DNA of 43,066 bases from Desulfotomaculum sp. (GTDB lineage: Bacteria > Bacillota > Desulfotomaculia > Desulfotomaculales > Desulfohalotomaculaceae). Below are positions 3,178 to 21,815 of this stretch, piece after piece. Location of the stretch: assembly GCA_017656165.1 (NCBI GenBank), contig JACDOL010000011.1:1-43066 (forward strand), given 5' to 3'. Under the pieces are notes generated by a model, which saw only the letters and a list, made by a program, of their open reading frames with translations, ran no database searches and was not told the origin of the DNA. Position 1 is the stretch's first letter; each line of letters starts with the position of its first letter. Made by a program: the position numbers and the translations under genes.

Positions 3178-3717
3178 ATGCACCCAGATGTGCAGAAAAT
3201 ACTGTTATCCGAGGAGCAAATCAGAGAAAGGGTAAAAGAACTGGGACAGCAGATTTCTCAGGATTATCATGCCAGAGAAGTACTGGTGGTAGGTATTTTG
3301 AAAGGTGCAATGATTTTCCTGGCTGACCTGGTGCGAAATTTATCAGTATCCACTTATTTTGATTTTATGGCCGTTTCCAGTTATGGTTCGGGGACAAAAT
3401 CTTCGGGTGCGGTACGGATATTAAAGGACCTGGATAAAAGCATTGAAGGCAAACACGTGCTGATTGTAGAAGACATTGTAGATACCGGGCTGACCTTAAA
3501 ATACCTGGTGGAAAACCTTAAATCAAGAAACCCGGAAAGCTTAAAAATCTGCACGCTGCTGGACAAGCCCGACAGGAGGACTGTTGATGTACAGGTAGAC
3601 TATACTGGCTTTACTATTCCCAACGAATTTGTTGTTGGTTACGGGCTGGACTTTGATGAGCGCTACCGCAACCTGCCGTACATTGCTGTTTTGAAACCGG
3701 AAGTATACCAGGGATAA
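3178..3717 (+). CDS. hpt: Hypoxanthine phosphoribosyltransferase
   Basis: A 179-residue cytoplasmic type I phosphoribosyltransferase that converts hypoxanthine (and usually guanine) plus PRPP to IMP (GMP) in purine salvage. The PRPP loop is clear: VLIVEDIVDTGLTL at about 94-107, with the acidic pair Glu98/Asp99. The flexible loop containing the SSYGSGTKSSG stretch (67-77) and the C-terminal VGYGLDFDERYRNLPYIAVL purine-binding segment match bacterial Hpt proteins in order and length. The start is ATG at 3178, eight bases after GGGAGG. guaA follows 48 bases later under the same promoter, pairing salvage to IMP/GMP with GMP synthesis, and the de novo operon lies immediately beyond. Confidence 0.97.
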   Translation: MHPDVQKILLSEEQIRERVKELGQQISQDYHAREVLVVGILKGAMIFLADLVRNLSVSTYFDFMAVSSYGSGTKSSGAVRILKDLDKSIEGKHVLIVEDIVDTGLTLKYLVENLKSRNPESLKICTLLDKPDRRTVDVQVDYTGFTIPNEFVVGYGLDFDERYRNLPYIAVLKPEVYQG

Positions 3718-5317: not shown

Positions 5318-5349
5318 CGTTGACAACCGTTGACAACCTTTGTTATTAT
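5318..5349 (+). promoter_or_regulatory. Promoter of the purine-operon leader, with duplicated -35 sequence
   Basis: TTGACA (5320-5325), an 18-base spacer and TATTAT (5344-5349) place a transcription start near 5356, just before the guanine aptamer. The ten bases CGTTGACAAC occur twice in tandem (5318-5327 and 5328-5337), so a second TTGACA sits in the spacer, too close to this -10 to act with it. Confidence 0.8.
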
Positions 5350-5371
5350 GTAGGTGAAAAAAGTTAATATG

Positions 5372-5443
5372 TTCACGTATATCCTTGGGAATATGGCCCA
5401 AGAGTCTCTACCGGGCAACCGTAAATTGCCCGACTACGTGGGA
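5372..5443 (+). promoter_or_regulatory. Guanine-type purine riboswitch aptamer (G-box)
   Basis: All three helices and both loops of the purine riboswitch can be read. P1 is CACGTA/TACGTG (5374-5379 with 5435-5440). P2 is CTTGGG/CCCAAG (5384-5389 with 5397-5402) closed by AATATGG. P3 is CGGGCAA/TTGCCCG (5412-5418 with 5426-5432) closed by CCGTAAA. The junction AGTCTCTACC is near-consensus. The base-pairing position equivalent to C74 of the xpt aptamer is C at 5434, which in this family means guanine/hypoxanthine and not adenine recognition. It is expected to lower expression when guanine is plentiful. Confidence 0.96.
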
Positions 5444-5550
5444 AAGTGTACCTAGGGTTCCACACCCGCTGCGGGTGGTTCGGTCCGAGCGGTACAGGCT
5501 GGTTATTTTTTAGTTAACCAGTTACACCGGCAGGGATAAAAGCCCAGGCG
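5444..5550 (+). promoter_or_regulatory. ykkC-class aptamer, probable PRPP riboswitch (subtype 2b)
   Basis: Conserved ykkC elements occur in order: CTAGGGTTCC (5452-5461), GGTCCGAG (5482-5489) and GGGATAAAAGCCC (5533-5545, the P3 hairpin). Pairings are P1a GTGTA/TACAC (5446-5450 with 5523-5527), CACCC/GGGTG (5463-5467 with 5473-5477) and CTGGTTA/TAACCAG (5499-5505 with 5515-5521). ykkC RNAs divide into guanidine, ppGpp, PRPP and nucleoside-diphosphate sensors. A position directly after a guanine aptamer and before purine genes is the published setting of the PRPP subtype, which switches genes on. Class membership is read from sequence; the ligand is inferred from context. Confidence 0.88.
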
Positions 5551-5601
5551 GTAGGTTTCGCACGCTCTAATGAAACCTACGCGCCTGGGCTTTCTTGCTT
5601 T
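5542..5601 (+). terminator. Riboswitch-controlled intrinsic terminator
   Basis: A long hairpin: GCCCAGGCG (5542-5550) pairs with CGCCTGGGC (5582-5590) and GTAGGTTTC (5551-5559) with GAAACCTAC (5572-5580), with one bulged G and a 12-base loop, followed by TTTCTTGCTTT. Its 5' strand includes the CCC (5543-5545) that closes P3 of the preceding aptamer. Ligand-stabilised P3 and the terminator are therefore mutually exclusive, as expected for a PRPP-activated switch. Confidence 0.92.
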
Positions 5602-5610
5602 GTGACTCAG

Positions 5611-5706
5611 CCAAGGCATTTACGGAAAAAACGATTTGATTGTGTTTTGTAGGGGATTTGATTTATCAAACCCAGCCCGGAGGCTGTACCTTGGCGGTGA
5701 TAGGAC
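5611..5706 (+). repeat. Terminator-associated palindromic repeat, copy A (interrupted)
   Basis: CCAAGGCATTTACGG (5611-5625) and GTACCTTGG (5686-5694) are the inverted ends of an element also found at 19330, 27731 and 29520, followed by the shared tail CGGTG. The interior carries an unrelated hairpin of a second repeat family (5652-5673). It fills most of the gap between the riboswitch terminator and the permease gene; 5707-5825 shows nothing further except the permease ribosome-binding site. Confidence 0.7.
5646..5680 (+). repeat. GTAGGGG-type hairpin repeat, copy 1
   Basis: TTTTGTAGGGG followed by TTTGAT/ATCAAA arms (5657-5662 and 5665-5670) and CCC. The same framework recurs at 15760-15795 and, in shorter form, at 9131-9152. 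There is no T-tract, so it is not a terminator. Confidence 0.6.
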
Positions 5707-5825
5707 TTTTTACATAAAAAACCTCAAACGGGAGGTGTTCGGGCCGGCCTAAAAAATTAAATAATATTTTGACTAAAGGCAGAAAAAATAAAGTTAACCT
5801 GCAGCGACAAGGAGGAATTATAATA

Positions 5826-7196
5826 ATGCTTGAAAAGCTGTTTCAGCTGAAGAAGTACAATACCGATGTCAGAACAGAAATTATAGCGGGTTTAACAACC
5901 TTTATGACCATGGCTTACATTCTTTTCTTAAACCCCACCATATTATCCACCACAGGAATGGAAAGAGACGCTATATTTTTCGCTACTGCAGCTGCTGCCG
6001 GTATTGTTACCATTGCCATGGGGTTAGTTGTTAACTTTCCTGTTGCCCTTGCACCGGGTATGGGATTAAACGCTTACTTTGCCGCAGTTGCCGCTGAAGG
6101 AATGGGTATGCCCTGGCAGGTGGCGCTGGGTGCAGTATTTATTTCCGGTATTATATTTATTATTTTAACAGTTACCCAGGTTCGCCAGCTGCTGGTTGAT
6201 GCAGTTCCTGATTCCATGAAGAGGGCCATTACTGTGGGTATCGGATTATTTATTACTATAATTGGTTTAAAGATGTCTGAAATAATGGTAGTACAGGCTG
6301 CGCCCATTCCGCCCACTATAGATAAACTGGCGGAAGAAGGAAGCACCACTTTGATGTTCTTTGAGTGGAACATACTGCTGGGCAGTTTCAGCAACCCGGC
6401 AACACTGCTGGCTTTAATTGGACTGGCAATTACCGGGATACTGATGGCCAGGGGAGTTAAAGGTTCTCTGCTGATAGGTATTTTGACCAGTACCATTATT
6501 GGTATTCCCCTGGGAGTAACCCAGGTTCCTGAAAATTTTTCTCTTTTCGCCCTACCGAACTTTAACAACCTGGCGGTAGGGGCCCTGGACATTAAGGGTG
6601 CGCTGGAAATGGGTATTTGGACCGTTGTATTTACCTTTACCTTTGTAGAGCTGTTTGATACATTCGGCACCCTGGTGGGTACAGCCAACAAGGCAGGACT
6701 GCTGGATAAGAGCGGTAAAAGTCCCCGCCTGGGTAAGGCTATGCTGGTAGATGCTTTTGGTGTTTCTTTCGGTGCTTTAATGGGTACCAGTACCGTTACT
6801 GCTTACGTTGAAAGCAGTGCCGGCGTCAGTGAAGGTGGGCGTACTGGTTTAACTGCTGTGACTGTCGGTATTCTGTTCCTGCTGGCACTGGTACTGGCAC
6901 CGGTGGCCGGCCTGATTCCCAGTGCTGCCACTGCACCGGCACTAATTATTGTAGGCGTTCTTATGGCTTCAGCAGTAAAAGAAATTAACTTTGATGACTT
7001 TACCGAAAGCCTGCCTGCTTTCCTGACCTTTTCACTGATGCCTTTTACCTACAGCATTGCTAACGGTATTGCCGCTGGTATTGTATCTTATGTGGTACTG
7101 AAGGCAGCGGCCGGCCGGGCTAGAGAAGTGCACTGGTTGATGTGGATTTTAGCCGTTCTGGTTGTAGTTCGCTATGCATTCCTGGGAGGAGAGTAA
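5826..7196 (+). CDS. pbuG: NCS2/AzgA-family purine (hypoxanthine/guanine) permease
   Basis: A 456-residue integral membrane transporter of the AzgA branch of the NCS2 family (PbuG/PbuO/AdeQ type), importing purine bases by proton symport. Family marks are the opening RTEIIAGLTTFMTMAYILFLNP, the APGMGLNAYFA segment in TM3, and FTFVELFDTFGTLVGTANKAG followed by DAFGVSFGALMGTSTVTAYVESSAGVSEGGRTG, which carry the substrate-binding residues. Twelve to fourteen hydrophobic segments are visible. The in-frame ATG at 5769 lacks a ribosome-binding site; ATG at 5826 follows AAGGAGG and matches the family start. It is first in the purine operon, so the guanine/PRPP leader controls import along with synthesis. 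The symbol pbuG is by family; adenine transport cannot be excluded. Confidence 0.93.
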   Translation: MLEKLFQLKKYNTDVRTEIIAGLTTFMTMAYILFLNPTILSTTGMERDAIFFATAAAAGIVTIAMGLVVNFPVALAPGMGLNAYFAAVAAEGMGMPWQVALGAVFISGIIFIILTVTQVRQLLVDAVPDSMKRAITVGIGLFITIIGLKMSEIMVVQAAPIPPTIDKLAEEGSTTLMFFEWNILLGSFSNPATLLALIGLAITGILMARGVKGSLLIGILTSTIIGIPLGVTQVPENFSLFALPNFNNLAVGALDIKGALEMGIWTVVFTFTFVELFDTFGTLVGTANKAGLLDKSGKSPRLGKAMLVDAFGVSFGALMGTSTVTAYVESSAGVSEGGRTGLTAVTVGILFLLALVLAPVAGLIPSAATAPALIIVGVLMASAVKEINFDDFTESLPAFLTFSLMPFTYSIANGIAAGIVSYVVLKAAAGRAREVHWLMWILAVLVVVRYAFLGGE

Positions 7197-7284: not shown

Positions 7285-7794
7285 TTGGTTGGTATTGTTA
7301 TGGGTAGTGACTCTGATCTTACCGTTATGAAAGGTGCTGCCGATATTTTAGACAAGCTGGGGATTCCTTACGAGGTGGTCATATCATCAGCCCACCGGCT
7401 GCCGGAAAAAACTGCAGAATATGCCCGCACCGCCAAGGATAGGGGTATTCAAGTAATAATTGCCGGTGCAGGTATGGCTGCCCACTTACCCGGTGTTATT
7501 GCATCGTTAACAACACTTCCGGTGATTGGTGTACCTATTAAATCCGGTGCACTGGAAGGGGTAGATGCCCTATACGCCATTGTACAGATGCCCCCGGGGA
7601 TACCGGTGGCCACAGTGGGTATTAACGGCGCCAAAAATGCCGGTATTCTAGCTGCTCAAATAATCGGGCTGTCAAACGATGAAATACAGCAAAAACTGGC
7701 TGAGTATAAAAAGGAAATGGCACAAAGTGTGGAAAAGAAAGCAGAAAAATTAAAAAAGCTTGGCATTGAAGGATATTTGAACAGCAGGAACTAG
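7285..7794 (+). CDS. purE: N5-CAIR mutase / AIR carboxylase PurE
   Basis: A 169-residue cytoplasmic enzyme making 4-carboxy-aminoimidazole ribonucleotide. The PurE signature elements are present: GSDSDL near residue 8, SAHRLPEKT near 37, and GAGMAAHLPGVIASLTTLPVIGVPI near 66-90. The protein looks like class I by its SDSD and GAGxAAHLPG motifs. Class I enzymes normally use N5-CAIR made by PurK, but no purK gene lies in this operon, where Bacillus has purE-purK-purB. Either PurK is elsewhere or this PurE uses AIR and CO2 directly. The start is TTG at 7285, nine bases after AGGAGG; purB follows after 24 bases. Confidence 0.97.
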   Translation: MVGIVMGSDSDLTVMKGAADILDKLGIPYEVVISSAHRLPEKTAEYARTAKDRGIQVIIAGAGMAAHLPGVIASLTTLPVIGVPIKSGALEGVDALYAIVQMPPGIPVATVGINGAKNAGILAAQIIGLSNDEIQQKLAEYKKEMAQSVEKKAEKLKKLGIEGYLNSRN

Positions 7795-7818
7795 GTTCAC
7801 TTAAGGAGGTTAAAACGG

Positions 7819-9111
7819 ATGATTGAGCGCTACACCTTACCGGAAATGAAACGTATCTGGTCAGAAGAAAACAAGTTCCGCAAGTGGTTGGAAGTAGAAA
7901 TATATGCCTGCGAGGCCCTGGCAGAATTGGGGAAAATACCGGCAGAAGCTGTTGAAGTAATAAAAGAAAAAGCTGACTTTGATGTAGATCGCATTTTGGA
8001 AATAGAGTCGGTGGTTCACCATGATGTAATTGCCTTTACCACCTGCGTGGCAGAATATGTGGGAGAAGAAAGCAAGTATATACACATGGGTCTGACATCG
8101 TCGGATGTGGTTGATACGGCTCAAAGTGTCCGGATGAAAGAAGCGGCAGAACAAATACTTTCCCGCTTGGAGGGACTTCACAAGCTGCTTTTAGAAAAAG
8201 CCCAAGAATACCGCTATACAATTATGATTGGACGTACGCACGGTATTCATGCCGAGCCCATGACTTTTGGGTTAAAAATGCTGCTGTGGGCAGCAGAAAT
8301 GGAGCGCAACATTGAACGACTAAAAAAAGCCCTTGAGGTTATCAGCGTAGGAAAAATTTCCGGTGCCGTTGGAACCTATGCCAATATTGATCCCAGGGTA
8401 GAAGCTTATGTCTGTGAAAAGCTGGGATTAAAGCCGGCAAAGCTGTCAACCCAGGTGCTGCAGCGGGATCGCCATGCTGAATATATGAATACTTTGGCTG
8501 TTATTGGCTGTACTTTAGAAAAAATGGCCACTGAAATCAGGGCCCTGCAGCGTACAGATATTCGTGAGGCTGAAGAGTATTTTGCCAAGGGACAAAAAGG
8601 TTCATCTGCCATGCCCCACAAGCGCAACCCCATCATAACTGAGCGCATTACCGGCATGGCCCGACTGCTGCGGGGGTATGCCGTGACGGCCATGGAAAAT
8701 GTTGCCCTCTGGCATGAACGGGATATTTCCCATTCCTCGGTAGAACGTATTATCATTCCCGATGCCACTACCACATTAGACTACATGCTGAAAAAGATGA
8801 CGGACATAATAAAAAATCTACTGGTATACCCGGAAAAAATGAAGCACAACATGGAACGCACCAGGGGCCTGGTATTCTCGCAGCGGGTTCTCCTGGCCCT
8901 GGTAGATAAGGGCATTACAAGGGAAAGGGCATATGAACTGGTACAGAGAAATGCCATGGAATGCTGGAGAACCGGAACGGAATTTAAAGAGCTTTTGGCC
9001 GGGGACCAGGATGTAATGGAATTATTGAGTCCCGCGGAACTGGATGAACTGTTTGAATACAGTCATTACTTGAGGCATATTGATGAAATTTATTCCCGGT
9101 TTGGACTGTAA
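7819..9111 (+). CDS. purB: Adenylosuccinate lyase
   Basis: A 430-residue fumarase/aspartase-superfamily lyase that cleaves SAICAR to AICAR plus fumarate and adenylosuccinate to AMP plus fumarate. The superfamily signature loop SSAMPHKRNPI (about residues 263-273) carries the catalytic serine. The IGRTHGIHAEPMTFG segment (about 136-150) and the MGLTSSDVVDTAQ segment (about 90-102) complete the active site. Its length matches the short Bacillus/Thermotoga type. The ATG follows AAGGAGG. The 77-base gap to purC holds a hairpin at 9131-9152. Confidence 0.98.
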   Translation: MIERYTLPEMKRIWSEENKFRKWLEVEIYACEALAELGKIPAEAVEVIKEKADFDVDRILEIESVVHHDVIAFTTCVAEYVGEESKYIHMGLTSSDVVDTAQSVRMKEAAEQILSRLEGLHKLLLEKAQEYRYTIMIGRTHGIHAEPMTFGLKMLLWAAEMERNIERLKKALEVISVGKISGAVGTYANIDPRVEAYVCEKLGLKPAKLSTQVLQRDRHAEYMNTLAVIGCTLEKMATEIRALQRTDIREAEEYFAKGQKGSSAMPHKRNPIITERITGMARLLRGYAVTAMENVALWHERDISHSSVERIIIPDATTTLDYMLKKMTDIIKNLLVYPEKMKHNMERTRGLVFSQRVLLALVDKGITRERAYELVQRNAMECWRTGTEFKELLAGDQDVMELLSPAELDELFEYSHYLRHIDEIYSRFGL

Positions 9112-9130
9112 AGGTAAAACAGCAGGTTGA

Positions 9131-9152
9131 GGGGCTCAATAAAATGAGCCCC
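9131..9152 (+). repeat. GGGGCTCA hairpin in the purB-purC gap
   Basis: Eight-bp arms GGGGCTCA/TGAGCCCC around ATAAAA, followed by A-rich sequence with no T-tract on the plus strand. The arms are nearly identical to those of the hairpin between purM and purN (15768-15787), suggesting a dispersed repeat or a shared RNA-processing element. Confidence 0.65.
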
Positions 9153-9188
9153 CTAAAAAAATATCTTAAATGAGGAGAGGTGTCTTTC

Positions 9189-9908
9189 TTGCAGAAGAAA
9201 GAACTGCTGTACGAGGGCAAGGCCAAGAAAGTTTACAGAACTGACAACCCGGACCTTTTATGGGTGGAGTACAAGGACGATGCCACTGCCTTTAACGGGG
9301 CAAAAAAGGGAACTATTGTGGGTAAGGGAGTGCTGAATAACCTTATCAGTGCTCACTTTTTCCAGCTGTTGGCTGAAAAGGGTGTTCCCAATCATTTTGT
9401 TGAGCTGGTTAATGAACGGGAGCAGGTGGTAAAAAGCTTAGATATCATCCAGGTGGAAGTTATTGTCCGAAACCTGGCTGCCGGCAGTATGGCCAAGCGC
9501 CTGGGACTGGAAGAAGGAATGGACCTGGGCGGGCCGGTGGTAGATTACTGCTATAAAAGCGATGAACTGGGAGACCCGCTGATTAATGATGATCACATCC
9601 GGGCTTTAAAACTGGCAGCGCCGGAACAAGTTAAAACCATCAGGGAAATGGCATTAAAGGTTAATGATATTTTAACCAGTTACTTAGCTGATAAAAATAT
9701 TATCCTGGTAGATTACAAGCTGGAATTTGGTTTCCACAAGGGAGAAATACTTCTCGGGGATGAAATTTCACCTGATACCTGCCGGTTCTGGGACAGCAAA
9801 ACCAGGGAAAAACTGGACAAAGACCGCTTCCGCCGTGACCTTGGTAATGTGGAGGAAGCTTACAAGGAAATATACAGGAGGTTAACCGGCAGAGAAGTGC
9901 AGATATAA
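9189..9908 (+). CDS. purC: SAICAR synthetase
   Basis: A 239-residue cytoplasmic ligase joining CAIR and aspartate with ATP hydrolysis. The ATP-grasp-like N-terminus [12 protein letters not shown], the [22 protein letters not shown] core (about 91-112), and [30 protein letters not shown] (about 173-202) are the standard PurC blocks in order. GTG at 9180 is also in frame but lies almost on top of the Shine-Dalgarno sequence (GAGGAGAGG, 9172-9180). TTG at 9189 has usable spacing and gives the usual short N-terminus, so I chose it. It is the third de novo enzyme gene of the operon. Confidence 0.96.
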
Positions 9909-9999
9909 GGCAGCTTAAAAGATTAAATGTTAACTCTTTTTGAACTGTTCATTTTAAATTATGAATTCCAAATTTTATACAAAAACCGGAGGTTTAAAT

Positions 10000-10248
10000 A
10001 TGTACCAAGCAAAGATTTACATCACCCTGAAACAAAGCGTGCTCGACCCCCAGGGCAGTGCGGTTACTAAATCGCTGCATGCCATGGGTTATGAAAATGT
10101 AAAAGATGTCCGGGTTGGCCGCTACCTGGTGGTGGATGTTGACGCTCCCAGTAAAGAAGCAGCCGGGGAACAGGTACATGATATGTGCAGAAAGCTGCTG
10201 GCAAACCCGGTAATTGAAGACTACACCTTTGAGCTGGTGGAGGTATAA
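10000..10248 (+). CDS. purS: FGAM synthase subunit PurS
   Basis: An 82-residue protein that bridges PurL and PurQ in the three-subunit formylglycinamidine ribonucleotide synthase of Gram-positive bacteria and archaea. The family pattern is visible: [21 protein letters not shown], then [23 protein letters not shown], and the C-terminal [15 protein letters not shown]. An upstream in-frame ATG (9961) precedes the Shine-Dalgarno GGAGG (9988-9992); ATG at 10000 is correct for the family. Two bases separate its stop from purQ, consistent with equimolar translation of complex subunits. Confidence 0.95.
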
Positions 10249-10250
10249 AA

Positions 10251-10952
10251 ATGAAATTTGGAGTAATTGTATTCCCCGGTTCCAACTGCGATGCCGACTG
10301 CCTGCATGCTGTGAAAGCAGTTTTAGATCAACCGGTGGAATATATCTGGCACAAGTCCAACAGCGTTGACGGTTTTGACTGCATCATCCTGCCCGGTGGT
10401 TTTTCTTACGGTGATTACCTGCGGGCAGGAGCCATTGCCCGGTTCTCGCCGGTAATGGAAGCGGTAATAAATTACGCCCAAAAAGGCGGTTGGGTGCTGG
10501 GAATCTGCAATGGTTTTCAAGTGCTGCTGGAAGCGGGACTTCTGCCCGGGGCCATGCGGCGCAACAATAACCTTCAATTTATTTGCCAGGATACTTACCT
10601 GAAGGTGGAAAACTGCAGCACACCTTTTACAGCCCTCTGCCATCCCGGGGAGGTGCTGAAAATCCCGGTGGCCCATGGAGAGGGCAATTACTACTGTGAT
10701 GAGAAAACGCTGAAAGAATTGAAGCAGAACAATCAAATAGTATTCAGGTACTGCGATGAGATGGGAAAAGTAACGGGTGAAGCAAATCCCAACGGCTCGA
10801 TAAACAACATTGCCGGCATCTGCAACCGGCATGGCAATGTGCTGGGAATGATGCCGCACCCTGAGCGCTGTGCTGAAGAGATACTGGGAAGCAGTGACGG
10901 GGCGGTGCTCTTTAAATCCATCCTGGCCAGCTGGCAAAGGAGAGTGAAATAA
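10251..10952 (+). CDS. purQ: FGAM synthase glutaminase subunit PurQ
   Basis: A 233-residue class I glutamine amidotransferase that supplies ammonia to PurL. The nucleophile Cys lies in [20 protein letters not shown] (about residues 81-100), the oxyanion region is [17 protein letters not shown], and the catalytic His/Glu pair is in MMPHPERC near 200. The usual start [16 protein letters not shown] is intact. It begins two bases after purS, and purL begins on the base after its stop, so purSQL form a tightly coupled translation unit. Confidence 0.97.
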
Positions 10953-13202
10953 ATGGAACCGCGCAGCAGTGAAAAATTAAAGCCGGGCATTTGGCGGGAA
11001 ATGGGGCTTACCGACCAGGAGTTTGACAGGGTAAAGGAAATCCTGGGCCGGGAACCCAATTACGTGGAACTGGGCATTTTTGCAGTAATGTGGTCCGAGC
11101 ACTGCAGTTATAAAACATCACGGCCGGTGTTAAAATTTTTCCCCACCGAAGGGGAGCAGGTGCTGCAGGGTCCTGGTGAAAACGCCGGCATTGTTGACAT
11201 AGGGGACGGCCAGGCAGTGGCTTTTAAGATAGAAAGTCACAACCACCCCTCTGCCGTGGAACCGTACCAGGGTGCTGCCACCGGGGTGGGGGGCATCTTA
11301 AGGGATGTATTTACCATGGGAGCACGTCCCATTGCTGTACTGGATTCACTGCGTTTTGGCAGTCTTAAAAATTCCCGGACCCGCTATCTTTTCAGCGGGG
11401 TGGTGTCAGGGATATCCGGTTACGGAAACTGCGTCGGCGTCCCCACAGTTGGTGGTGAAGTATTCTTTGCTCCCACTTATGAAGAGAATCCCCTGGTTAA
11501 CGTGATGTGTGTGGGCTTAATTGATCACAAGGATATTAAAAAAGGAGTAGCTGCCGGCATAGGCAACCCCGTAATGGTGGTTGGAGCCAGAACAGGCCGG
11601 GACGGCATTCATGGTGCTACCTTTGCCTCCGAGGAACTGAGCGAGGAATCAGCTGAGAAACGTCCTGCCGTTCAGGTGGGCGACCCGTTCATGGAAAAAC
11701 TGCTGCTGGAAGCCTGCCTGGAAGTAATTAAGAGCGGTTATGTGGTGGGAATTCAAGATATGGGTGCTGCCGGGTTGACCAGTTCATCCTGTGAGATGGC
11801 CAGCCGTGCCGGTACCGGTATAGAGATGGATTTATCCCTGGTACCCCGCCGGGAAGAGGGTATGACGCCCTACGAGCTGATGCTGTCTGAATCCCAAGAA
11901 AGGATGCTGGTGGTTGTTAAAAAGGGAACGGAAGACAAGGTTAAGGAAATATTTAACAAGTGGGATTTAGAAGCAGTGGTGGTGGGCCGGGTAACAGGTG
12001 ACGGGATGCTGCGGCTCACCGAGGGGCAGCAGCTGGTGGCGGAAGTGCCCGCCAAGGCCCTTACTGATGAGGCCCCGGTTTACCAGCGGCCTTACAGTGA
12101 ACCGGAGTATTTAAAGGAAGCGCAGAATCTTTCCCCTGTTAAAATACCAATCCCGGATAATTATGAGCAGGTACTGCTGGATCTGCTGGCTTCGCCCAAC
12201 ATAGCCAGCAAAGAGTGGGTTTACCGCCAGTATGATCATATGGTAGGGACCAATACGGTGGTGCGTCCCGGTTCCGATGCGGCTGTACTGCGGGTTAAAG
12301 GCACCAAAAAGGGTATTGCCATGACCACTGACTGCAACCCCCGCTACTGTTACCTTGACCCCTACATGGGGGGGATGATTGCAGTGGCGGAGGCGGCCCG
12401 CAACCTGGTATGTTCAGGTGCCAAGCCGCTGGCTATAACTAACTGCCTGAACTTTGGAAATCCCGAAAAACCGGGTGTTATGTGGCAGTTCCGCCGGGCT
12501 GTTCAAGGGATGAGTGAGGCCTGCCGCAAATTAAATACCCCGGTCACCGGGGGCAATGTCAGTTTTTACAACGAGACTAAAGGAACTGCTGTTTACCCCA
12601 CTCCTACCGTGGGTATGGTTGGATTAATAGAAGACCTGGACTACTGCTGTACCCAAGATTTTAAAGATGAGGGAGACATAATAATTTTGGTAGGAGAAAC
12701 CAGAGTTGAACTGGGCGGATCGGAATACTTAAGTGTTGTTCACGGTTTAGAAGGCAGGGGAACTCCTCCCCAGCTTGATTTGGAATTGGAGAGAAAAGTT
12801 CAGCAGGCAGTGCTGGAAGCCATTAAAAAGGGACTGGTTAAATCTGCCCACGACTGTTCAGAAGGCGGCCTGGCTGTAGCCTTAGCCGAAAGCTGTATTT
12901 CCGGCGGTATTGGAGCTGAGATTTACAGTATAGAAAACATTCGCGGGGATGCTCTGCTGTTTGGGGAATCACAGTCTCGGATAATTATCAGTGCCAGCGA
13001 AAACAATGTGGCTGAGCTGATCCGCCACCTGACCTTAATGGAAGTACCTTTTACCCGCCTGGGAACAGTAGGGGGGGAAGAATTAAGAATAAACCTGATG
13101 GATTCCGGCTGTGCCGCCGGGCGGCCTCGCCCAGTAATAAACCTGCCGGTGGCAGAAATGGAAAGCAGATGGCGGGGGGCAGTAAAATGCTTAATGAAGT
13201 AA
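10953..13202 (+). CDS. purL: FGAM synthase large subunit PurL
   Basis: A 749-residue small-type PurL that uses ATP and PurQ-derived ammonia to convert FGAR to FGAM. The active-site histidine block is [12 protein letters not shown] near residues 48-59. ATP/Mg binding segments [25 protein letters not shown] and [15 protein letters not shown] follow, and the second AIR-synthetase-like repeat contains [16 protein letters not shown] and [16 protein letters not shown]. Its length is that of the PurS-dependent enzyme rather than the 1300-residue fused form. Its 3' end overlaps purF by 16 bases. Confidence 0.98.
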
Positions 13203-14614
13203 GAAATTCCCTTGCCTGGTGGCAGGGGGACAAGATGCAGGAGGAATGCGGTGTATTTGGCATTTACGCTCCCGGCATGGATGTGGCCCAGTTAACTTAC
13301 TTCGGCTTATACGCCCTTCAGCACCGGGGCCAGGAAAGTGCCGGAATAGCCACCACTGATGGGTACGGTATAAAATTTTATAAAAACATGGGCCTGGTGC
13401 CGGAGGTGTTTAATGACAGTGTAATGAGGCACTTAAACGGCCATGCTGCCATCGGCCATGTGCGTTATTCCACCACCGGTTCCAGTGAACTGACCAATGC
13501 CCAGCCGCTGGTTTTTCAGCACAGCAAAGGGATGCTGGGACTGGCCCATAATGGAAATCTCACCAATGCCAGTACTTTGAGGAAAATGCTTTTTAATAAT
13601 GGAGCAATATTCCAGTCCTCCACTGACAGTGAGGTTATCGTTAACTTAATAGCCCGCTACAGCCAGCAGAGCCTGGAGGGGGCCATAATGAAGGCAATGA
13701 TTGACATTGAAGGGGCCTATTCACTGGTAATTTTAACTGCCGAAGCACTTTATGCAGTACGGGATCCCTACGGCTTTCGCCCCCTGTGCCTGGGACGCAT
13801 CGGTGACGGATGGGTGGTGGCGTCTGAAAGCTGTGCTTTAAATACCATCGGGGCACAGATGGTGCGGGATGTCCAGCCGGGAGAAATTGTGCGCTTAGAT
13901 AAAAACGGTTTATCTTCTCTAAAAACACAGCCGGCCCCTAAACCTGCTCACTGTATTTTTGAATATATTTATTTTGCCCGTCCCGACAGCACTATAGATG
14001 GATTTCATGTTAACCGGGTGCGCCGGGAAATGGGCCGCCAGCTGGCCAGGGAGTACAAGGTGGAAGCAGATATTGTTATTCCGATTCCTGACAGCGGGAC
14101 TGCAGCGGCCAGGGGTTATGCCGAGGAAGCGGGAATTCCTTTTGAAGAAGGATTGATGAAAAACCGCTACATTGGACGTACTTTTATCCAGCCCAACCAG
14201 CAGATGCGGGACCTGGGAGTACGTCTAAAACTAAACCCCATGCGTGAAGTGCTGGCCGGGAAGCGGGTAATTATGGTGGATGATTCCCTGGTCCGGGGTA
14301 CAACCAGTAAAAAGATAGTTAAGATGCTGCGGGAAGTGGGAGTAGCAGAAGTACACCTGTGCTTAAGCTCACCGCCGGTGGTTACCGGGTGCCACTACGG
14401 CATTGATACCAGCGACCGGAAAGAGTTAATTGCTGCCACCAAGTCGGTTAAAGAAATAAGGCGGGAAGTAGGAGCCGACGGCTTATACTATCTCAGCCAG
14501 AAAGGTCTGCTGAAAGTGTTTGGTGACAAAGGACAGAATTTCTGCTGCGCCTGTTTTGACAGGAAATACCCGGTAAAAATACCTGAAGGGGCAGGAAAGT
14601 TCAGCCTGGAATAA
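13187..14614 (+). CDS. purF: Amidophosphoribosyltransferase
   Basis: A 475-residue enzyme for the committed step of purine synthesis: PRPP plus glutamine to phosphoribosylamine. The N-terminal Ntn-glutaminase has its nucleophile at Cys21 in [11 protein letters not shown], so a 20-residue propeptide must be removed, as in Bacillus PurF. The C-terminal phosphoribosyltransferase loop is [18 protein letters not shown]. Cysteines at [14 protein letters not shown], near LCLSSPP, and in NFCCACFD correspond to the [4Fe-4S] ligands of the oxygen-sensitive Bacillus-type enzyme. ATG at 13187 follows a G-rich site inside purL. ATG at 13235, after AGGGGGAC, is an alternative that would leave only a four-residue propeptide; in-frame ATG 13169 has no ribosome site. 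Confidence 0.96.
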
Positions 14615-14628
14615 AACAGGAGGTTTTT

Positions 14629-15675
14629 ATGAATAAGGAAAAAAAGCAGCCTTTAACTTATGCCGCGGCCGGGGTGGATATCAGTGCCGGCAGCAGGGCA
14701 GTGGAAATGATTAAACAGTCGGTGCACAGCACCTACCGCCCCGGTGTACTGAATGATATTGGCGGTTTTGGTGGTATGTTTGCCCTGGATACCAGCAGGT
14801 ACAGGGAACCGGTGCTGGTTTCCGGTACCGACGGGGTGGGCACCAAATTAAAAGTTGCCCATATGATGAATAAGCATAATACCATTGGTATTGACGCTGT
14901 TGCCATGTGTGTGAATGATATACTGGTGCAGGGTGCAGAACCGCTGTTTTTCCTGGATTACCTGGCGGTAGGCAGGCTGGAACCGGAGCAGGTGGCGGAA
15001 ATTGTGGAAGGTATTGCCGAGGGCTGCCGGCAGAGCGGCTGTGCCTTAATTGGCGGTGAGACGGCAGAAATGCCGGGTTTCTATGCTCCCGGCCAGTATG
15101 ACATTGCCGGATTTGCTGTTGGTGTAGCAGAAAAATCAAAGATTATAACAGGTAAAGATATCAGGCCGAAAGATGTATTAATTGGCCTGCCGTCATCAGG
15201 GCTGCATTCCAACGGGTATTCACTGGTTCGCAAGGCGCTGTTTGATACTGCCGGTTACAGTATTGATACAAGGCTGCCGGAGCTGGACTGTACCGTGGGG
15301 GAAGAACTTTTAAAACCAACCCGCATTTATGTGCGGTCCGTGCTGTCCTTACTGGACAGGTATTCCATAAAAGGAATGGCTCATATTACCGGCGGGGGTA
15401 TCACTGAAAATGTTCCCCGGGTGCTGCCCCACAACTGCCTGGCGGTAGTAAATAAAGCAGCCTGGGAAGTGCCGCCGGTGTTCCAGGTAATTAAACAAAT
15501 TGGCAGTGTACCCGATGAGGAGATGTACCGTACCTTTAATATGGGAATAGGTTTAGTTATGGTGGTGCCGCCGGAGGAGGCAGACGCAGTGCTGTCTGAA
15601 CTGAAGAAGCAGGGTGAAACGGCGTGTATTATAGGGGAAATTATCTCCGGGGAGAAAAAGGTAGAGTACATTTAA
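14629..15675 (+). CDS. purM: AIR synthetase
   Basis: A 348-residue ATP-dependent cyclase converting FGAM to aminoimidazole ribonucleotide. Diagnostic blocks are the N-terminal [21 protein letters not shown], then [50 protein letters not shown], then [29 protein letters not shown], and [19 protein letters not shown] follows AGGAGG. purN begins 163 bases later across a repeat-filled spacer, the largest gap inside the operon. Confidence 0.98.
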
Positions 15676-15702
15676 CTGATAATGGCAGCCGGTACAGTTA
15701 AA

Positions 15703-15773
15703 TTGTATAGGGGTTTAACCAGTAGGGGGTCTTTTGTAGGAACTCTTTTATAGGAATTCTTTTGTAGGGGCTC
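15703..15773 (+). repeat. Degenerate 14-base tandem repeat between purM and purN
   Basis: Three consecutive units follow the pattern TTTTRTAGGRRYTC (15732-15745, 15746-15759, 15760-15773). A weaker unit lies at 15718-15731 and a possible fifth at 15703-15716. The last unit runs into the hairpin at 15768-15787. The stretch has no open frame and no obvious promoter. Confidence 0.65.
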
Positions 15774-15795
15774 AATTTATTGAGCCCTGCCGGCC
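15760..15795 (+). repeat. GTAGGGG-type hairpin repeat, copy 2
   Basis: TTTTGTAGGGG leads into GGGCTCAA/TTGAGCCC arms (15768-15775 and 15780-15787) with loop TTTA, then TGCCGG. It shares layout with 5646-5680 and arm sequence with 9131-9152. There is no T-tract. Confidence 0.65.
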
Positions 15796-15838
15796 CCCTG
15801 GGATCCATTTATACTCCTCTTTTTAAGGATGTGGGATT

Positions 15839-16465
15839 GTGGCTTTATTAAAAGTGGGTGTACTGGCCTCCGGCCGGGGGTCAAACCTGCAGTCAATTAT
15901 AGATTCCTGCCAGCGGGGGGAAATTAACGCTGAGGTAAAAGTGGTAATCAGCGACAGCAGAGATGCCTATGCCTTACGGCGGGCTGAAAAATACGGCATC
16001 GATGCTTATTTTGTCAATGTAAAGGAATACCCGGATAAAGCAGCTTATGAAGCCAGGATAGTGGAAATTCTTAAGCAGTACCAGGTTGAGCTGGTATGCC
16101 TGGCCGGCTATATGCGGCTGGTTGGAAGTACTGTTCTTAAAGCTTTTCCCTGGCGGATTATGAATATTCACCCCTCGCTGCTGCCTGCTTTCCCAGGCCT
16201 GCACGCCCAGAGGCAGGCCCTGGATCACGGGGTAAAAATATCCGGGTGTACCGTGCACTTTGTTGATGAAGGAATGGACACCGGGCCAATTATACTGCAG
16301 GCGGCGGTACCGGTGTATGATGACGATACGGAAGAAAGCCTGGCAGAACGAATACTGGAACAGGAGCACAAAATATACCCGCAGGCAGTGGGTTTATTTG
16401 CCGACGGCAGACTTCAACTGGTCGGTAAAAAAGTAATTATAAATGGAGGGAAGAAAAATTATTAA
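15839..16465 (+). CDS. purN: GAR transformylase (10-formyl-THF dependent)
   Basis: A 208-residue cytoplasmic enzyme that transfers a formyl group from 10-formyltetrahydrofolate to GAR. Family blocks are [17 protein letters not shown] at the N-terminus, [68 protein letters not shown] in the centre (the catalytic Asn-His-Asp are in [11 protein letters not shown] and VDEGMDTG), and the [16 protein letters not shown] helix. The start is GTG at 15839, following AAGGATG. Its stop codon lies inside the first codons of purH. Confidence 0.97.
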
Positions 16466-17990
16466 GCGTGCTTTAATCAGTGTTTCCAACAAGGAAGGTT
16501 TGGTGGAATTCGGGCGCGGCCTGGCGGAGCTGGGGGTAGAAATAATTTCTACTGGGGGAACTGCCAGGGCCCTGAAAGAAGCTGGGGTGCCTGTAACATA
16601 TATATCAGATGTTACAGGTTTTCCCGAGATTTTAGACGGTAGGGTTAAAACGCTGCATCCCAGGATACACGGGGGTATCCTGGCTATGCGCACCGGGGAG
16701 CACTTAAAGCAGCTGGAGGAACTGGACATAACTCCCATTGACCTGGTGGTGGTTAACCTTTACCCGTTTAAGGAGACAGTGGCCAGGCCCGGCGTAACCC
16801 TGGACGAGGCTGTTGAAAACATCGACATTGGTGGTCCCACCATGGTCCGGGCAGCAGCTAAAAACCATCAACATGTATTAATTGTAGTTAATCCTAACCG
16901 TTACCAGGAAGTACTGGAAGCTGTAAAAAATGATGCCCTTACCAATGAACTGCGGCTGGACCTGGCCAGGGAAGCCTTTGCCCATACTGCTGCTTATGAT
17001 GCGGCCATTGCCAATTATCTTACCGGGGTGGCCGGGGAAACTTTTCCCCCGCAGCTGGGGGTGTCTGCGCAGCTTGGACAGGTGCTGCGTTATGGTGAAA
17101 ATCCTCACCAAAAAGCCGCTTTTTACCGGGATGAACTGGTTAAGGGTGCCTGTATAGCTAATGCAGAACAGCTTCACGGCAAAGAATTATCATACAACAA
17201 TATCCTGGATGCCAATGCTGCCCTGGAGCTGGTCAGGGAATTTACCGCTCCCACTGCTGCCATTATCAAGCACAATAATCCCTGCGGCTGTGCCAGTGAT
17301 GAGAATTTAACCAAAGCTTATGAAAAGGCGCTGGAGGGTGATCCGGTATCAGCTTTTGGTGGTATTGTAGCTTTGAACCGTCCAGTGGACAGGGCAGCTG
17401 CAGAAAAAATGAGTGAAATATTTTTAGAGGCTGTAATAGCGCCGGACTTTGCCCCGGAAGCATTGGAGGTGCTGTCCAAAAAACCCAATCTTAGGCTGTT
17501 AAAAACCGGAGACTTATCCAAACAAACTAACGATACCATGGAAATTCGCAAAGTGAATGGCGGTTACCTCCTGCAGGAAACTGACCGGGAAGTGGTAAAC
17601 CCGGAAAAGCTGCAGGTGGTTACAGAAAAGCAGCCCACCCAGGAAGAGTTAGACGAAATGATTTTTGCCATGACAATAGTTAAGCATGTCAAATCCAATG
17701 CCATTGTTGTTACGAAAAACAAGCAGCTGCTTGGAGTAGGTGCCGGTCAGATGAACCGGGTGGGTGCAGCAAACATTGCTTTTAAGCAGGCTGGGGAAAA
17801 GGCCAGGGGAGCGGTCCTTGCTTCTGATGCTTTCTTCCCCTTCCGGGATACAGTGGATGCAGCAGCCAAAGCGGGAATAACAGCAATTATTCAACCGGGT
17901 GGTTCCAAGCGGGATGATGAGTCCATAAAAGCCTGCAATGAGCATGGTATATCCATGGTGTTCACCGGCATGAGGCACTTTAAACATTAA
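16443..17990 (+). CDS. purH: Bifunctional AICAR transformylase / IMP cyclohydrolase
   Basis: A 515-residue enzyme catalysing the last two steps to IMP. The N-terminal MGS-like cyclohydrolase domain ([51 protein letters not shown]) is followed by the transformylase domain ([63 protein letters not shown]). The only in-frame ATG is at 16443, but the sole Shine-Dalgarno (GGAGGG, 16446-16451) lies just inside it. Initiation may depend on coupling to purN, or may use an ATT codon at 16458 or 16461. The exact start is therefore uncertain by about six residues. Confidence 0.97.
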
Positions 17991-18008
17991 TTTTAGGGAG
18001 GTAACATA

Positions 18009-19277
18009 ATGAAAGTTCTTGTTGTGGGCGGCGGGGGACGTGAACATGCCCTGGTTTGGAAAATTGCCCAAAGCCCCAGGGTAAGCAGAATTTACTGTGC
18101 GCCGGGAAACGCTGGGATCAGCCAGCTGGCTGAATGTGTGAACATTAAAGCCAATGATATTAGCAGCCTGAAAAAATTTGCCCTGGAAGAACGCATTGAC
18201 CTTACCGTGGTAGGACCTGAAGCGCCGTTAATAGAGGGCATAGTTGATGAATTCAGCCAGGCCGGCTTGAGGGTTTTCGGACCTAACAGGAATGCCGCCC
18301 AGCTGGAAGGCAGTAAAGCACTGGCCAAGCACTTTATGGCTAAATACAACATACCCACTGCCTCTTATGCTGCCTTTTCCAATGAAAAGGAAGCCATGGA
18401 TTATGTACGGGAAAAAGGTGGACCGCTGGTGGTAAAGGCTTCCGGGCTGGCGGCCGGAAAGGGAGTAATAGTCTGCCAGCACACCGCCGATGCCCTGGAT
18501 GCGGTAAGAAGAGTAATAGTAGATAAGGAATTTGGTGAGGCGGGCAGCCAGGTGGTTATTGAAGAATACCTGGAAGGTGAAGAGGTCAGCATCCTGGCAT
18601 TTACTGACGGTAAAACCATTGTTCCCATGATACCTGCCCAGGACCACAAGCGGGTGTTTGACAATGACAAGGGCCCCAATACCGGCGGCATGGGTGCCTA
18701 TGCTCCAGCCCCACTTTATACCCCGGAGCTGCACCAAGTTGTGGTAAAAGAAATACTGGAACCAACCGTTAAAGGAATGACTGAAATGGGGTGGCCTTTT
18801 AAAGGAGTTCTTTATGCCGGCTTAATGGTCACCAAGGACGGCCCCAGGGTACTGGAATACAACGTCCGCTTTGGTGACCCGGAGGCCCAGCCGCTGCTGT
18901 CGCTTTTAGATACCGACCTGGTGGATATAATGGAAGCAGTTATAGATGAACGCCTGGACCAGCTGGATGTCAAGTGGAAAGACGGTGCTTCAGTATGCGT
19001 TATTATGTCTGCACCGGGTTATCCCGGAAATTATCCCAAGGGCGACGTCATTACCGGGCTGGATAAGGTGCCGGAAGACATAACGGTATTTCATGCTGGA
19101 ACGGCCTTAGAGAACGGTAATTTTGTAACTAACGGCGGCCGGGTGCTGGGAGTTACGGCAGTGGCCGCAGATATCCCCGGTGCCATAGATAGGGCTTACC
19201 AGGGAGTTAAAAAAATAAACTTCAACGGTGCCCATTACCGGAGTGATATTGGGCAGAAAGCGTTAAAAGATAGGTAA
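18009..19277 (+). CDS. purD: GAR synthetase
   Basis: A 422-residue ATP-grasp ligase joining phosphoribosylamine and glycine. The N-terminal dinucleotide-like fold begins VLVVGGGGREHALVWKIAQSP. The ATP-grasp core includes PLVVKASGLAAGKGVIVC, VVIEEYLEGEEVSILAFTDG and QDHKRVFDNDKGPNTGGMGAYAP, and the metal-binding segment is GLMVTKDGPRVLEYNVRFGDPEAQPLL. The start follows GGGAGG. It is the last gene of the operon, with a strong terminator directly after its stop. Confidence 0.98.
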   Translation: MKVLVVGGGGREHALVWKIAQSPRVSRIYCAPGNAGISQLAECVNIKANDISSLKKFALEERIDLTVVGPEAPLIEGIVDEFSQAGLRVFGPNRNAAQLEGSKALAKHFMAKYNIPTASYAAFSNEKEAMDYVREKGGPLVVKASGLAAGKGVIVCQHTADALDAVRRVIVDKEFGEAGSQVVIEEYLEGEEVSILAFTDGKTIVPMIPAQDHKRVFDNDKGPNTGGMGAYAPAPLYTPELHQVVVKEILEPTVKGMTEMGWPFKGVLYAGLMVTKDGPRVLEYNVRFGDPEAQPLLSLLDTDLVDIMEAVIDERLDQLDVKWKDGASVCVIMSAPGYPGNYPKGDVITGLDKVPEDITVFHAGTALENGNFVTNGGRVLGVTAVAADIPGAIDRAYQGVKKINFNGAHYRSDIGQKALKDR

Positions 19278-19386: not shown

Positions 19387-19482
19387 AAAGGTTTTACTTT
19401 CTTTTTTTAAAGTGTTAAAGGATTTGTAATTATAAGTGTCGAATTGCGGAAATAATATCTTCAAAATGGGAGGATGTTTAAG

Positions 19483-19821
19483 ATGGAAGAATATAGAGGC
19501 AAGTTAAAGGAACCGTTAAACGACCGGCTGTTTGAAGCCATTCTCACCCTAGAGACAATAGATGACTGCTACCGCTTTTTTGAAGACATTTGTACGGTTG
19601 CGGAACTGAGGGCCCTGGCCCAGCGGCTGGAAGTGGCAAAAATGCTGCAGGCCAACCGCACTTATGGAGATATAGCAGAAAAAACAGGGGCCAGCACTGC
19701 CACCATCAGCCGGGTAAAACGATGTTTAAATTACGGTGCTGATGGATATAAGATGGTGCTGGAACGCCTGGCCAATAAAAATAACGGTGCAGAAAAACCA
19801 CTGGATGAACAGGAGAGGTAG
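19483..19821 (+). CDS. yerC: TrpR-family regulator YerC-like (candidate histidine-operon regulator)
   Basis: A 112-residue all-helical DNA-binding protein of the YerC/YecD branch of the TrpR family. The dimerisation part (LFEAILTLETIDDCYRFFEDICTVAELRALAQRLEVAKMLQ) is followed by the helix-turn-helix RTYGDIAEKTGASTATISRVKRCLNYGADGY (about residues 62-92). ATG at 19474 overlaps the Shine-Dalgarno GGGAGG; ATG at 19483, nine bases after it, is preferred. It is two bases from hisZ and evidently co-transcribed. As I recall, comparative genomics has proposed YerC-like proteins as histidine regulators (HisR) in Firmicutes. Position and a candidate operator at 21073-21101 fit that role, but the ligand is not shown by the sequence. 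Confidence 0.9.
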   Translation: MEEYRGKLKEPLNDRLFEAILTLETIDDCYRFFEDICTVAELRALAQRLEVAKMLQANRTYGDIAEKTGASTATISRVKRCLNYGADGYKMVLERLANKNNGAEKPLDEQER

Positions 19822-19823
19822 AC

Positions 19824-21026
19824 ATGGCATCACAAAGATTGGGACGGCTGCCGGAAGGAGTGAGAGACCTGCTGCCGGCAGAAACAAGGCGCAAACGGCA
19901 GCTGGAGCGGGGGTTTGCCAAACTGGCGGAAAGCTGGGGGTACCACGAGGTAACTACTCCGACTTTTGAGTACTTTGAAAATTTATGCTCAGGAGAAAAA
20001 GATGATGACAAGCTGTACAAGTTTTTGGACCGCAAGGGACATATTATGGCCCTGCGGCCTGACCTTACCCGGCCCATTGCTAGGCTGGTGGCCACCAGGA
20101 TGCGCGGCGCTCCCCTGCCCATCCGCCTGTATTATTTAGCTCATGCTTTTAGTTATGAGGAACCCCTGGTAAGAAGGCAGAGGGAATTTTACCAGGCCGG
20201 TGTAGAAATACTTGGTGCCGGTGGTCCCGCAGCGGATGCCGAGGCAGTGGCCCTGGCCGTAGAATCACTGCACAATACCGGCTTAAAGGATTTCCGCCTC
20301 AGCCTGGGGCATGTGGGCATTTTTAACGGCTTAATGGCTGAACTGGAACTGCCGGAAGAACAGGTGAAAGCCATAAAAAAGGCAGTGGAAAATAAAGATT
20401 TTGTTCACCTCGGTGAACAGCTGGCTGCCAGGGACATAGCTCCCGAATGCCAGCGGAGGATTACCAGCCTGCTGTCACTGCGGGGCGGGGAAGAGGTTCT
20501 GGCCAGGGCTTCAGATATACTGGACAGTAAAGAGGCCCTGCAGGCCCTGGATAATTTAAAACAGGTATATACCGCACTTGCCGGCTATGGTGTTCAGCAG
20601 TATGTTACGCTGGACCTGGGCCTGCTTCTGGGACTGGACTATTACACGGGAGTAATTTTTGAAGGATATACCCTTTCTCTCGGTTTTCCGGTGTGCGGCG
20701 GCGGCAGGTATGACCGCCTGCTCGGCCACTTTGGCTATGATCTCCCGGCTACCGGTTTTGCCATGAATGTGGATCAGCTGCTGTCGGCCCTGGAAAAACA
20801 GCAGGGGCCTGCTGGAGAACCGCCGGTGGATGTACTGGTGGCCTGGGCAGAAGAAAGGCTTTTAGATGCGGTAAGAAAGGTAAAAGAGTTGAGAGATGGC
20901 GGGCTTACCGTTCAGCTGGAGCTGGCAGAGAGAGAAAAGCCGGACATTTTGCGGTATGCAGAAGAAAAAGGTATTTCTAGGGTTATATATATAGATCAAA
21001 ATGGCTGTATACAGGAATTAAAATAA
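19824..21026 (+). CDS. hisZ: ATP phosphoribosyltransferase regulatory subunit
   Basis: A 400-residue paralogue of histidyl-tRNA synthetase that lacks aminoacylation function and forms the hetero-octameric ATP phosphoribosyltransferase with short HisG, conferring histidine feedback control. Class II synthetase-like blocks are visible: GVRDLLPAETRRKRQLERGF, KFLDRKGHIMALRPDLTRPIARLVATRM, IRLYYLAHAFSYEEPLVRRQREFYQAGVEILG, and GLDYYTGVIFEGY with CGGGRYDRLLGHFG. Two points favour HisZ over HisS: the neighbouring hisG lacks its regulatory domain, and no full anticodon-binding domain is apparent. It is two bases after yerC and 123 bases before hisG. Confidence 0.94.
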   Translation: MASQRLGRLPEGVRDLLPAETRRKRQLERGFAKLAESWGYHEVTTPTFEYFENLCSGEKDDDKLYKFLDRKGHIMALRPDLTRPIARLVATRMRGAPLPIRLYYLAHAFSYEEPLVRRQREFYQAGVEILGAGGPAADAEAVALAVESLHNTGLKDFRLSLGHVGIFNGLMAELELPEEQVKAIKKAVENKDFVHLGEQLAARDIAPECQRRITSLLSLRGGEEVLARASDILDSKEALQALDNLKQVYTALAGYGVQQYVTLDLGLLLGLDYYTGVIFEGYTLSLGFPVCGGGRYDRLLGHFGYDLPATGFAMNVDQLLSALEKQQGPAGEPPVDVLVAWAEERLLDAVRKVKELRDGGLTVQLELAEREKPDILRYAEEKGISRVIYIDQNGCIQELK

Positions 21027-21072
21027 ACAATACCTTAAGCAGCAAGCCGCCTTATTTTTAAAACCTGTAATT

Positions 21073-21106
21073 AAACCTTGACAGCGAACCTGTTGAGGTT
21101 TATTAT
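21073..21106 (+). promoter_or_regulatory. Promoter of hisGDCBHAFIE with overlapping inverted repeat (candidate operator)
   Basis: TTGACA (21078-21083), a 17-base spacer and TATTAT (21101-21106) form a strong vegetative promoter. The same bases hold an imperfect inverted repeat with arms AAACCTTGACAG (21073-21084) and CTGTTGAGGTTT (21090-21101), matching at 10 of 12 positions around a 5-base centre. It covers the -35 box and the spacer, so a bound dimer would block polymerase. The TrpR-family product of the gene at 19483 is the obvious candidate binder; that link is inference. Confidence 0.75.
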
Positions 21107-21149
21107 TTTAACATATCATTATTTTAACTAACTAAAGGGAGGCGGCGTT

Positions 21150-21815
21150 TTGGTTGCAGCTGCTGATTTTATAACTTTTGCTGTGCCGAAAGGAACCTTG
21201 TTTAAATCCAGTGTAAAGCTTTTGGAAAGTGCAGGTTTGAACTGTGAAGCGCTGAAAAAAGAATCAAGGCAGCTGGTGTTTGCCGATGAAATTCAGGGTG
21301 TACGGTATATAATCTGTCGTCCCACAGATATTCCAACTTTTGTGGAATACGGGGCAGCAGACCTGGGGCTGGTAGGAAAAGACATTATAGTTGAACAGCA
21401 GAAAGATGTATACGAGCTGCTGGATTTAAAATACGGCGGGTGCCGTTTTATGGTTGCAGTTCCGGAAAGACTGCAGGACAAGAAGCTGGAAGAGTGGGGA
21501 CACGCCCGGGTGGCTACCAAGTTTCCGAGGGTTGCCGAGAACTTCTTTCAAAGCAGGGGCCTGCAGATGGAAATTATTAAACTGCACGGGAATATTGAAC
21601 TGGCACCTATTGTAGGATTAGCAGAAATGATAGTAGATATAGTTTCTACCGGGCGTACACTTAAGGAGAACAACCTGGTACCCATTGCCGATATAATGCG
21701 CTCTACTGCCCGGCTGATTGCCAACAGGGTAAGCCACCAGTATAAAGCTGACCGGGTCAACGAACTGGTGGAAAAATTTAGAAATGTCGTTGATGGGGGT
21801 TTGTTTGATGATTAA
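21150..21815 (+). CDS. hisG: ATP phosphoribosyltransferase catalytic subunit (short form)
   Basis: A 221-residue enzyme condensing ATP and PRPP to phosphoribosyl-ATP, the first step of histidine synthesis. The opening [21 protein letters not shown], the [16 protein letters not shown] segment, and the PRPP loop [17 protein letters not shown] (about 164-180) are characteristic. It ends where the long form would continue into the C-terminal histidine-binding domain, so it is the HisG-S type that needs HisZ. The start is TTG at 21150 after GGGAGG. Its last eight bases overlap hisD. Confidence 0.97.

Follow-up and report, generated by a model that had tools for sequence, protein, structure and literature searches.

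In the window, the whole stretch of 43,066 bases that was analysed, a gene for an NCS2-family purine permease is followed by the de novo purine biosynthesis genes from purE to purD, and both lie downstream of a leader that holds two adjacent riboswitch aptamers and one terminator (Table 1). The placement of a riboswitch gate before a permease gene and the complete de novo operon, as described in an earlier note on this DNA, is confirmed by the protein family matches (PF00860 for the permease, which has no NCBIfam match, and NCBIfam for purE to purD). Two further purine genes, hpt and guaA, precede the promoter-like site and are therefore outside the gate. This candidate promoter, assigned by consensus only, carries 11 of the 12 consensus bases and a TG before the second hexamer; the promoter scan returned 3 sites where shuffled sequences give 1.6. 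Between the terminator and the ribosome site of the permease lie about 210 further leader bases (5602-5809) with no Rfam match. Beyond purD, positions 19474-23097 hold a YerC/TrpR-like gene and his genes (hisZ, hisD), so that pur and his, two PRPP-consuming pathways, are neighbours in the window.

Table 1. Features of the gate and the surrounding purine genes in the window; ligand names of the aptamers are predictions.
Feature	Position	Strand	Details
hpt	3178-3717		upstream of gate
guaA	3745-5304		stop 5304; upstream of gate, directly before promoter-like site
Promoter-like site	5320..5349	+	TTGACA-18-TATTAT; between guaA and gate; consensus only
Guanine aptamer (predicted)	5372..5442	+	RF00167; P1 5372-5379/5435-5442; C74-equivalent 5434
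Shared strand	5437..5445	+	5437-5442 = guanine P1 3' strand; 5437-5440 + 5442-5445 = extended P0 5' strand
PRPP-subtype ykkC aptamer (predicted)	5441..5564	+	RF00442; P1 5447-5452/5491-5496; P3 5533-5535/5543-5545
P0 of PRPP aptamer	5442-5445/5556-5559	+	GAAA/UUUC; extension 5437-5440/5561-5564; strand pairing
Shared intrinsic terminator	5539..5601	+	arms 5539-5559 and 5572-5593; U-rich tail to 5601
NCS2-family purine permease	5826..7196	+	Pfam PF00860, 136.8 bits; ATG 5826; AGGAGG 5810-5815
purE, B, C, S, Q, L, F, M, N, H, D (this order)	7285..19277	+	NCBIfam equivalogs above cut-off

The earlier note had proposed covariance-model searches with Rfam. Scanning the window with 4227 families returned exactly two matches over the gathering score, both in the leader: RF00167 (Purine) at 5355-5456 with 93.1 bits (gathering 37, E 4.8e-16) and RF00442 (Guanidine-I/ykkC) at 5441-5552 with 70.8 bits (gathering 63, E 9.7e-11), the two sharing 16 bases. 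The first match bears out the purine aptamer that had been described at 5372-5443, with the ends of P1 falling at 5372 and 5442. In purine aptamers of this kind U22, U51 and C74 are guanine-contacting positions (PMC9295807), and the equivalents of all three are kept in the window (GACUAC with C at 5434, GUCUCUACC, and UAU in J1/2). The description as C74-type likewise holds, the base at 5434 being C and not U, and homologues predict that a C74-type aptamer of this sequence would bind guanine. The P2 base pair adjoining J1/2 is C.A in the window as against U-A in the consensus; a second copy in the same genome (contig C82, described below) and several relatives have the same C.A. Folded alone, the aptamer reaches -25.4 kcal/mol (z -2.7).

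The ykkC class comprises several ligand subtypes, which can be told apart by a few residues. An A46/C49 site separates guanidine aptamers from the other subtypes, and a G89/G96 site separates PRPP from ppGpp aptamers (PMC6031431). The window has C at the first site (5490), lacking the A diagnostic of guanidine, and G at the second (5547), where the 96-equivalent was located by motif, as the second base past the CCC of P3, and not by superposition. Twelve singlet ykkC RNAs, taken from genomes within the window's order, served as controls. Guanidine-type singlets have A at the first site and stand before SMR exporters (2/2), NUDIX-type singlets have G there and stand before NUDIX genes (2/2), ppGpp-type singlets have C without the extra G and stand before class IV aminotransferase genes (2/2), and PRPP-type singlets have C plus G and stand before pur genes (6/6). 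The two sites agree with gene context in the 12 singlets with no exception, and the window groups with the pur-gene set. The subtype residues thus mark the second aptamer as PRPP subtype (ykkC 2b), with PRPP as the ligand expected from homologues, and the RF00442 match together with these residues upholds the proposal that a PRPP-type aptamer begins a few bases past the guanine P1. Folded alone, this aptamer misses its consensus fold (z -1.4).

A ppGpp sensor (subtype 2a) in the same position would let the stringent response switch the operon on directly. The two aptamers are nearly alike, a single G96A change turning one into the other (PMC6031431), but the G at the 96-equivalent is present in the window whereas the two ppGpp-type singlets of the order are without it and precede aminotransferase genes, and we regard this alternative as very improbable. 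No PRPP- or ppGpp-named Rfam family matched the window up to E=5. RF00442, named after guanidine as the ykkC ligand found first, is the sole ykkC-type match and exceeds its gathering score (70.8 against 63 bits), yet a guanidine sensor, making the pair a guanine-guanidine gate, is scarcely credible, since 5490 is C whereas both guanidine-type singlets of relatives have A and precede SMR exporters, RF00442 in those genomes also picks up singlets of ppGpp, NUDIX and PRPP type, and the gene context in the window is purine only. The earlier note had held that a guanidine-subtype score would speak against its reading; such a score appears in the name of RF00442 only, while residues and controls give PRPP.

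As a statement of ligand identity, the Guanidine-I label is ruled out here by C at 5490, G at 5547 and the singlet controls. The same label falls on four singlets of relatives (L126, L134, L129, L132) that either have G at the 49 site before NUDIX genes or are without G at the 96 site before aminotransferases. T-box/ykkC pairs ahead of genes for branched-chain amino acids were taken for guanidine switches in a survey of contiguous riboswitches from 2025 (PMC12452182), probably because of the naming of RF00442.

The tandem was then compared with others of its kind. Scanning 84,980 species genomes with a sequence pattern gave at least 119 loci, which together with those of relatives made at least 136 tandem loci, a set biased in that the scan pattern requires GAAAG and CTAGGGTTCC. 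Removing L022, L076 and L102, which duplicate L139, L141 and L153 (contigs judged identical by length), left 133 distinct loci; the duplicates are excluded from counts based on 133, 123 and 101 and still included in those based on 136. Ten of the 136 tandems, with an unparsed tail, were left out of the strand analyses. Among the matches listed, 130 of the 136 tandems carry C or T at the A46/C49 site and 3 carry G (unparsed in 3), and the G89/G96 site is G in all 126 parsed tandems of the 136. In the guanine aptamer, GACTA occurs in 132 of the 133 distinct loci listed and AACTA in one. Adenine-PRPP tandems were also considered: the pattern allowed GATTA, yet 0/133 loci among the matches listed are adenine-type.

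The terminator folds into a hairpin of 22 bp with -36.6 kcal/mol (z -7.0 relative to 200 shuffles), containing a perfect inverted repeat of 12 bp (5539-5550/5582-5593), and it is followed by an interrupted U tract (UUUCUUGCUUU). A simple terminator scan missed the 5539-5593 hairpin because its loops were restricted to 3-8. The 5' arm of the hairpin includes both the 3' strand of P3 (CCC, 5543-5545) and the 3' strand of P0 (UUUC, 5556-5559); repeat and fold thus agree with the single common terminator, overlapping P3 of the second aptamer, that had been recognised before. No terminator was found between the two aptamers.

A further overlap links the aptamers to each other. By computation, guanine P1 and PRPP P0 are mutually exclusive, covarying pairings: among the matches listed, the two helices have at least 3 bases in common in 106 of 123 tandems and no base in common in 4 of 123. 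The 4-bp core of P0 (GAAA/UUUC) pairs in 101/101 distinct strand triples among the matches listed, and in 84 of these 101 the pairing extends at least 3 bp beyond the core, where shuffled tails give a mean of 13.5 and a maximum of 23 (500 rounds). Sliding the tails by 1, 2 and 3 bases leaves 21, 10 and 6 extended pairings. In the window's clade the shared strand is CGUG, with CACG or a near variant as partners, as against CGAG with CUCG-like partners in most tandems among the matches listed; when tails are exchanged between the clade and the rest, 18/910 and 0/910 pairings remain. One locus (L020, GAAU/AUUC) is a second compensatory case, another (L117) is of CGUG type without any P0 extension, and two with CGG opposite CCG (L023, L122) can pair only when the internal loop is shifted, which gives them a low score in the count. 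Because the window's clade has one common ancestor, the covariation amounts to few independent events.

That guanine P1 and PRPP P0 exclude each other was proposed in 2018 (PMC6031431), and by their sequences the 101 distinct tandems support this strand-competition model. Earlier publications already cover this type of gate, its logic and the competition model, and the three-strand covariation is a mild new point, which supplies natural test sequences for the proposed strand exchange.

Folding energies were computed for the window transcript cut at 5566, before the second arm of the terminator exists. The extended-P0 ensemble (-75.05 kcal/mol) lies below that with guanine P1 (-72.71 kcal/mol), so in this model P0 is a mild default of the window RNA when no ligand is bound. 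By 5600 the terminator states are ahead by about 20 kcal/mol, and the choice must therefore be made during transcription. Across 123 tandems among the matches listed, P0 is favoured in 63 with a median difference of -0.13 kcal/mol; with 63/123 favouring P0 among those matches, the use of P1 versus P0 energy to predict the default state in general is unsupported. Modelled energies this nearly balanced fit a switch, but alone they leave the 'on without ligands' state unexplained in general. Guanine P1 and the PRPP aptamer fold are both absent from the free-energy minimum of the full leader; such pseudoknot-free energies, blind to tertiary and ligand terms, are a poor guide here.

We read the leader as a tandem guanine-PRPP riboswitch with a single shared expression platform, of the published IMPLY type, at a probability of about 0.93. 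To our knowledge, this tandem is the only IMPLY-type RNA gate in print. RNA polymerase would leave the promoter near 5350, and the guanine aptamer would fold first. The 3' strand of its P1 (5435-5442) overlaps the 5' strand of P0, so guanine holding P1 shut would preclude P0 and leave the PRPP aptamer incomplete, and the 5539-5593 hairpin would stop transcription. With guanine absent, or with P0 and P3 stabilised by PRPP, the 5' arm of the terminator would be occupied and read-through would reach the permease and the purine operon. The genes would then be off only when guanine is high and PRPP is low. The ligands, the direction of each switch and the truth table are carried over from homologues, and the IMPLY logic would follow by analogy from the homologue work described in PMC5912903.

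In an alternative reading the two aptamers do not interact: the first would be an OFF switch and the second an ON switch, each working on its own (NOT A AND B). Neither aptamer needs the other to be complete, and the order has singlet PRPP switches before the same permease-pur operons (L128, L131, L135), but there is no terminator between the aptamers, the common strand cannot serve both helices, and PRPP override was observed in the published homologue (PMC5912903). We consider independent action highly unlikely.

The tandem guanine-PRPP gate occurs twice in this genome: the assembly has just two matches to each of RF00167 and RF00442, and they form two tandems. The second (G000:C82:7044-7235, L127) is 97.2% identical to the window's over the aptamers but stands before importer genes, not biosynthesis genes: a PnrA-like (BMP) substrate-binding lipoprotein, an ABC ATPase, two permeases and a weak phosphoribosyltransferase-domain protein. 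Its spacer is far shorter than the roughly 210 bases of the window. Nucleoside uptake and de novo synthesis in this genome would answer to the same two signals. At 97.2% the two gates are closer to each other than to their orthologues in the nearest relative (93.4 and 93.9%); this closeness is a hint of concerted evolution by gene conversion, or of recent copying, in a tree without a well supported fork.

In the wider order, 10 of 60 genomes (the window's own included) have purine-aptamer matches, 25 in all, and a ykkC match counted by hand lies directly behind 19 of the 25; the window's clade has two to three tandem gates per genome. In none of the 60 genomes of the order does PurR (TIGR01743) exceed its cut-off, whether a tandem is present or not. 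The control genomes with a match include Bacillus subtilis; weaker hits in the order are frames of about 170-270 aa covering the phosphoribosyltransferase half. PRPP sensing by PurR is probably absent in the order, and with no PurR over the cut-off in 60 genomes the RNA is therefore the likely PRPP sensor there. An inverse link between PRPP riboswitches and PurR was also considered and set aside, PurR being 0/60 regardless of the tandem and leaving nothing to correlate.

First genes downstream of the tandems were identified by tblastn with 21 queries, genes outside this query set being missed. Among the matches listed (n=133), importers and salvage genes comprise NCS2 permeases (73; 61 of the window's type and 12 of PbuX type), Xpt (13), BMP (8), PNP (3) and adenine deaminase (Ade, 3), and de novo genes comprise PurE (18), PFAS (5) and PurK (1). 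An importer or salvage gene thus comes first in 100 of these 133 loci versus a de novo gene in 24; 9 of the 133, mostly truncated loci, have no recognised first gene. Xpt-first loci are typical of Brevibacillus-like records among the matches listed, and tblastn placed neither GuaA nor Hpt downstream of the tandem at any of the 133 loci listed. De novo genes follow the permease, within the stretch examined, in 47 of the 61 window-type NCS2 loci listed. That the combination of permease and operon, pointed out in the earlier note, makes this example special is a view the tallies do not sustain: permease-first is the commonest arrangement (73/133 among the matches listed), and the setting of the window is therefore ordinary.

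The published rationale for the gate is ATP synthesis without GTP synthesis in the stringent response (PMC5912903; PMC5912904). Uptake and salvage targets, including the GMP branch via Xpt, are suggested by the tallies to be at least as common (among the matches listed), and several of these targets route bases to GMP (Xpt). The dominance of uptake and salvage is a mild new point, absent from the main text presenting the published rationale. The main text of PMC5912903 mentions neither permease nor xpt, and that of PMC9481103 mentions no permease; the supplements of both papers, which for PMC5912903 perhaps hold a gene list, lay outside the search. Our literature search found no paper linking a PRPP/ykkC riboswitch with a permease. 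That the gate is mainly a controller of purine uptake and salvage, with the stringent-response rationale covering only part of its targets, is a tentative idea that we rather doubt. If true, PRPP would be read as the salvage co-substrate, with import and salvage kept on for as long as PRPP is available for using the base. The tallies suggest that a physiological account of the gate should include uptake and salvage.

The window thus provides a clear, sequence-complete example of a known gate in its commonest setting, and two described tandems resemble it closely. In the codA tandem of Bacillus megaterium, for which IMPLY behaviour was shown and the structural mechanism left open (Sherlock 2018, PMC5912903), a guanine aptamer is likewise followed directly by a ykkC 2b aptamer with few bases between the P1 stems, and one terminator overlaps the PRPP aptamer before purine-related genes. 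The B. megaterium tandem controls codA and was assayed, whereas the window's, known from sequence, stands before an NCS2 permease gene and the complete de novo operon. The tandem of Thermoanaerobacter mathranii, from which the PRPP-aptamer crystal structure was obtained (Knappenberger 2018, PMC6031431), shares with the window the predicted mutual exclusion of P0 and P1 and the C49 and G96 site residues. The competing strands are CACG / CGUG / CACG in the window's clade versus CUCG / CGAG / CUCG in T. mathranii, compensatory on all three, and the 95-105 linker of the window's clade is one base shorter than in Thermoanaerobacter tandems.
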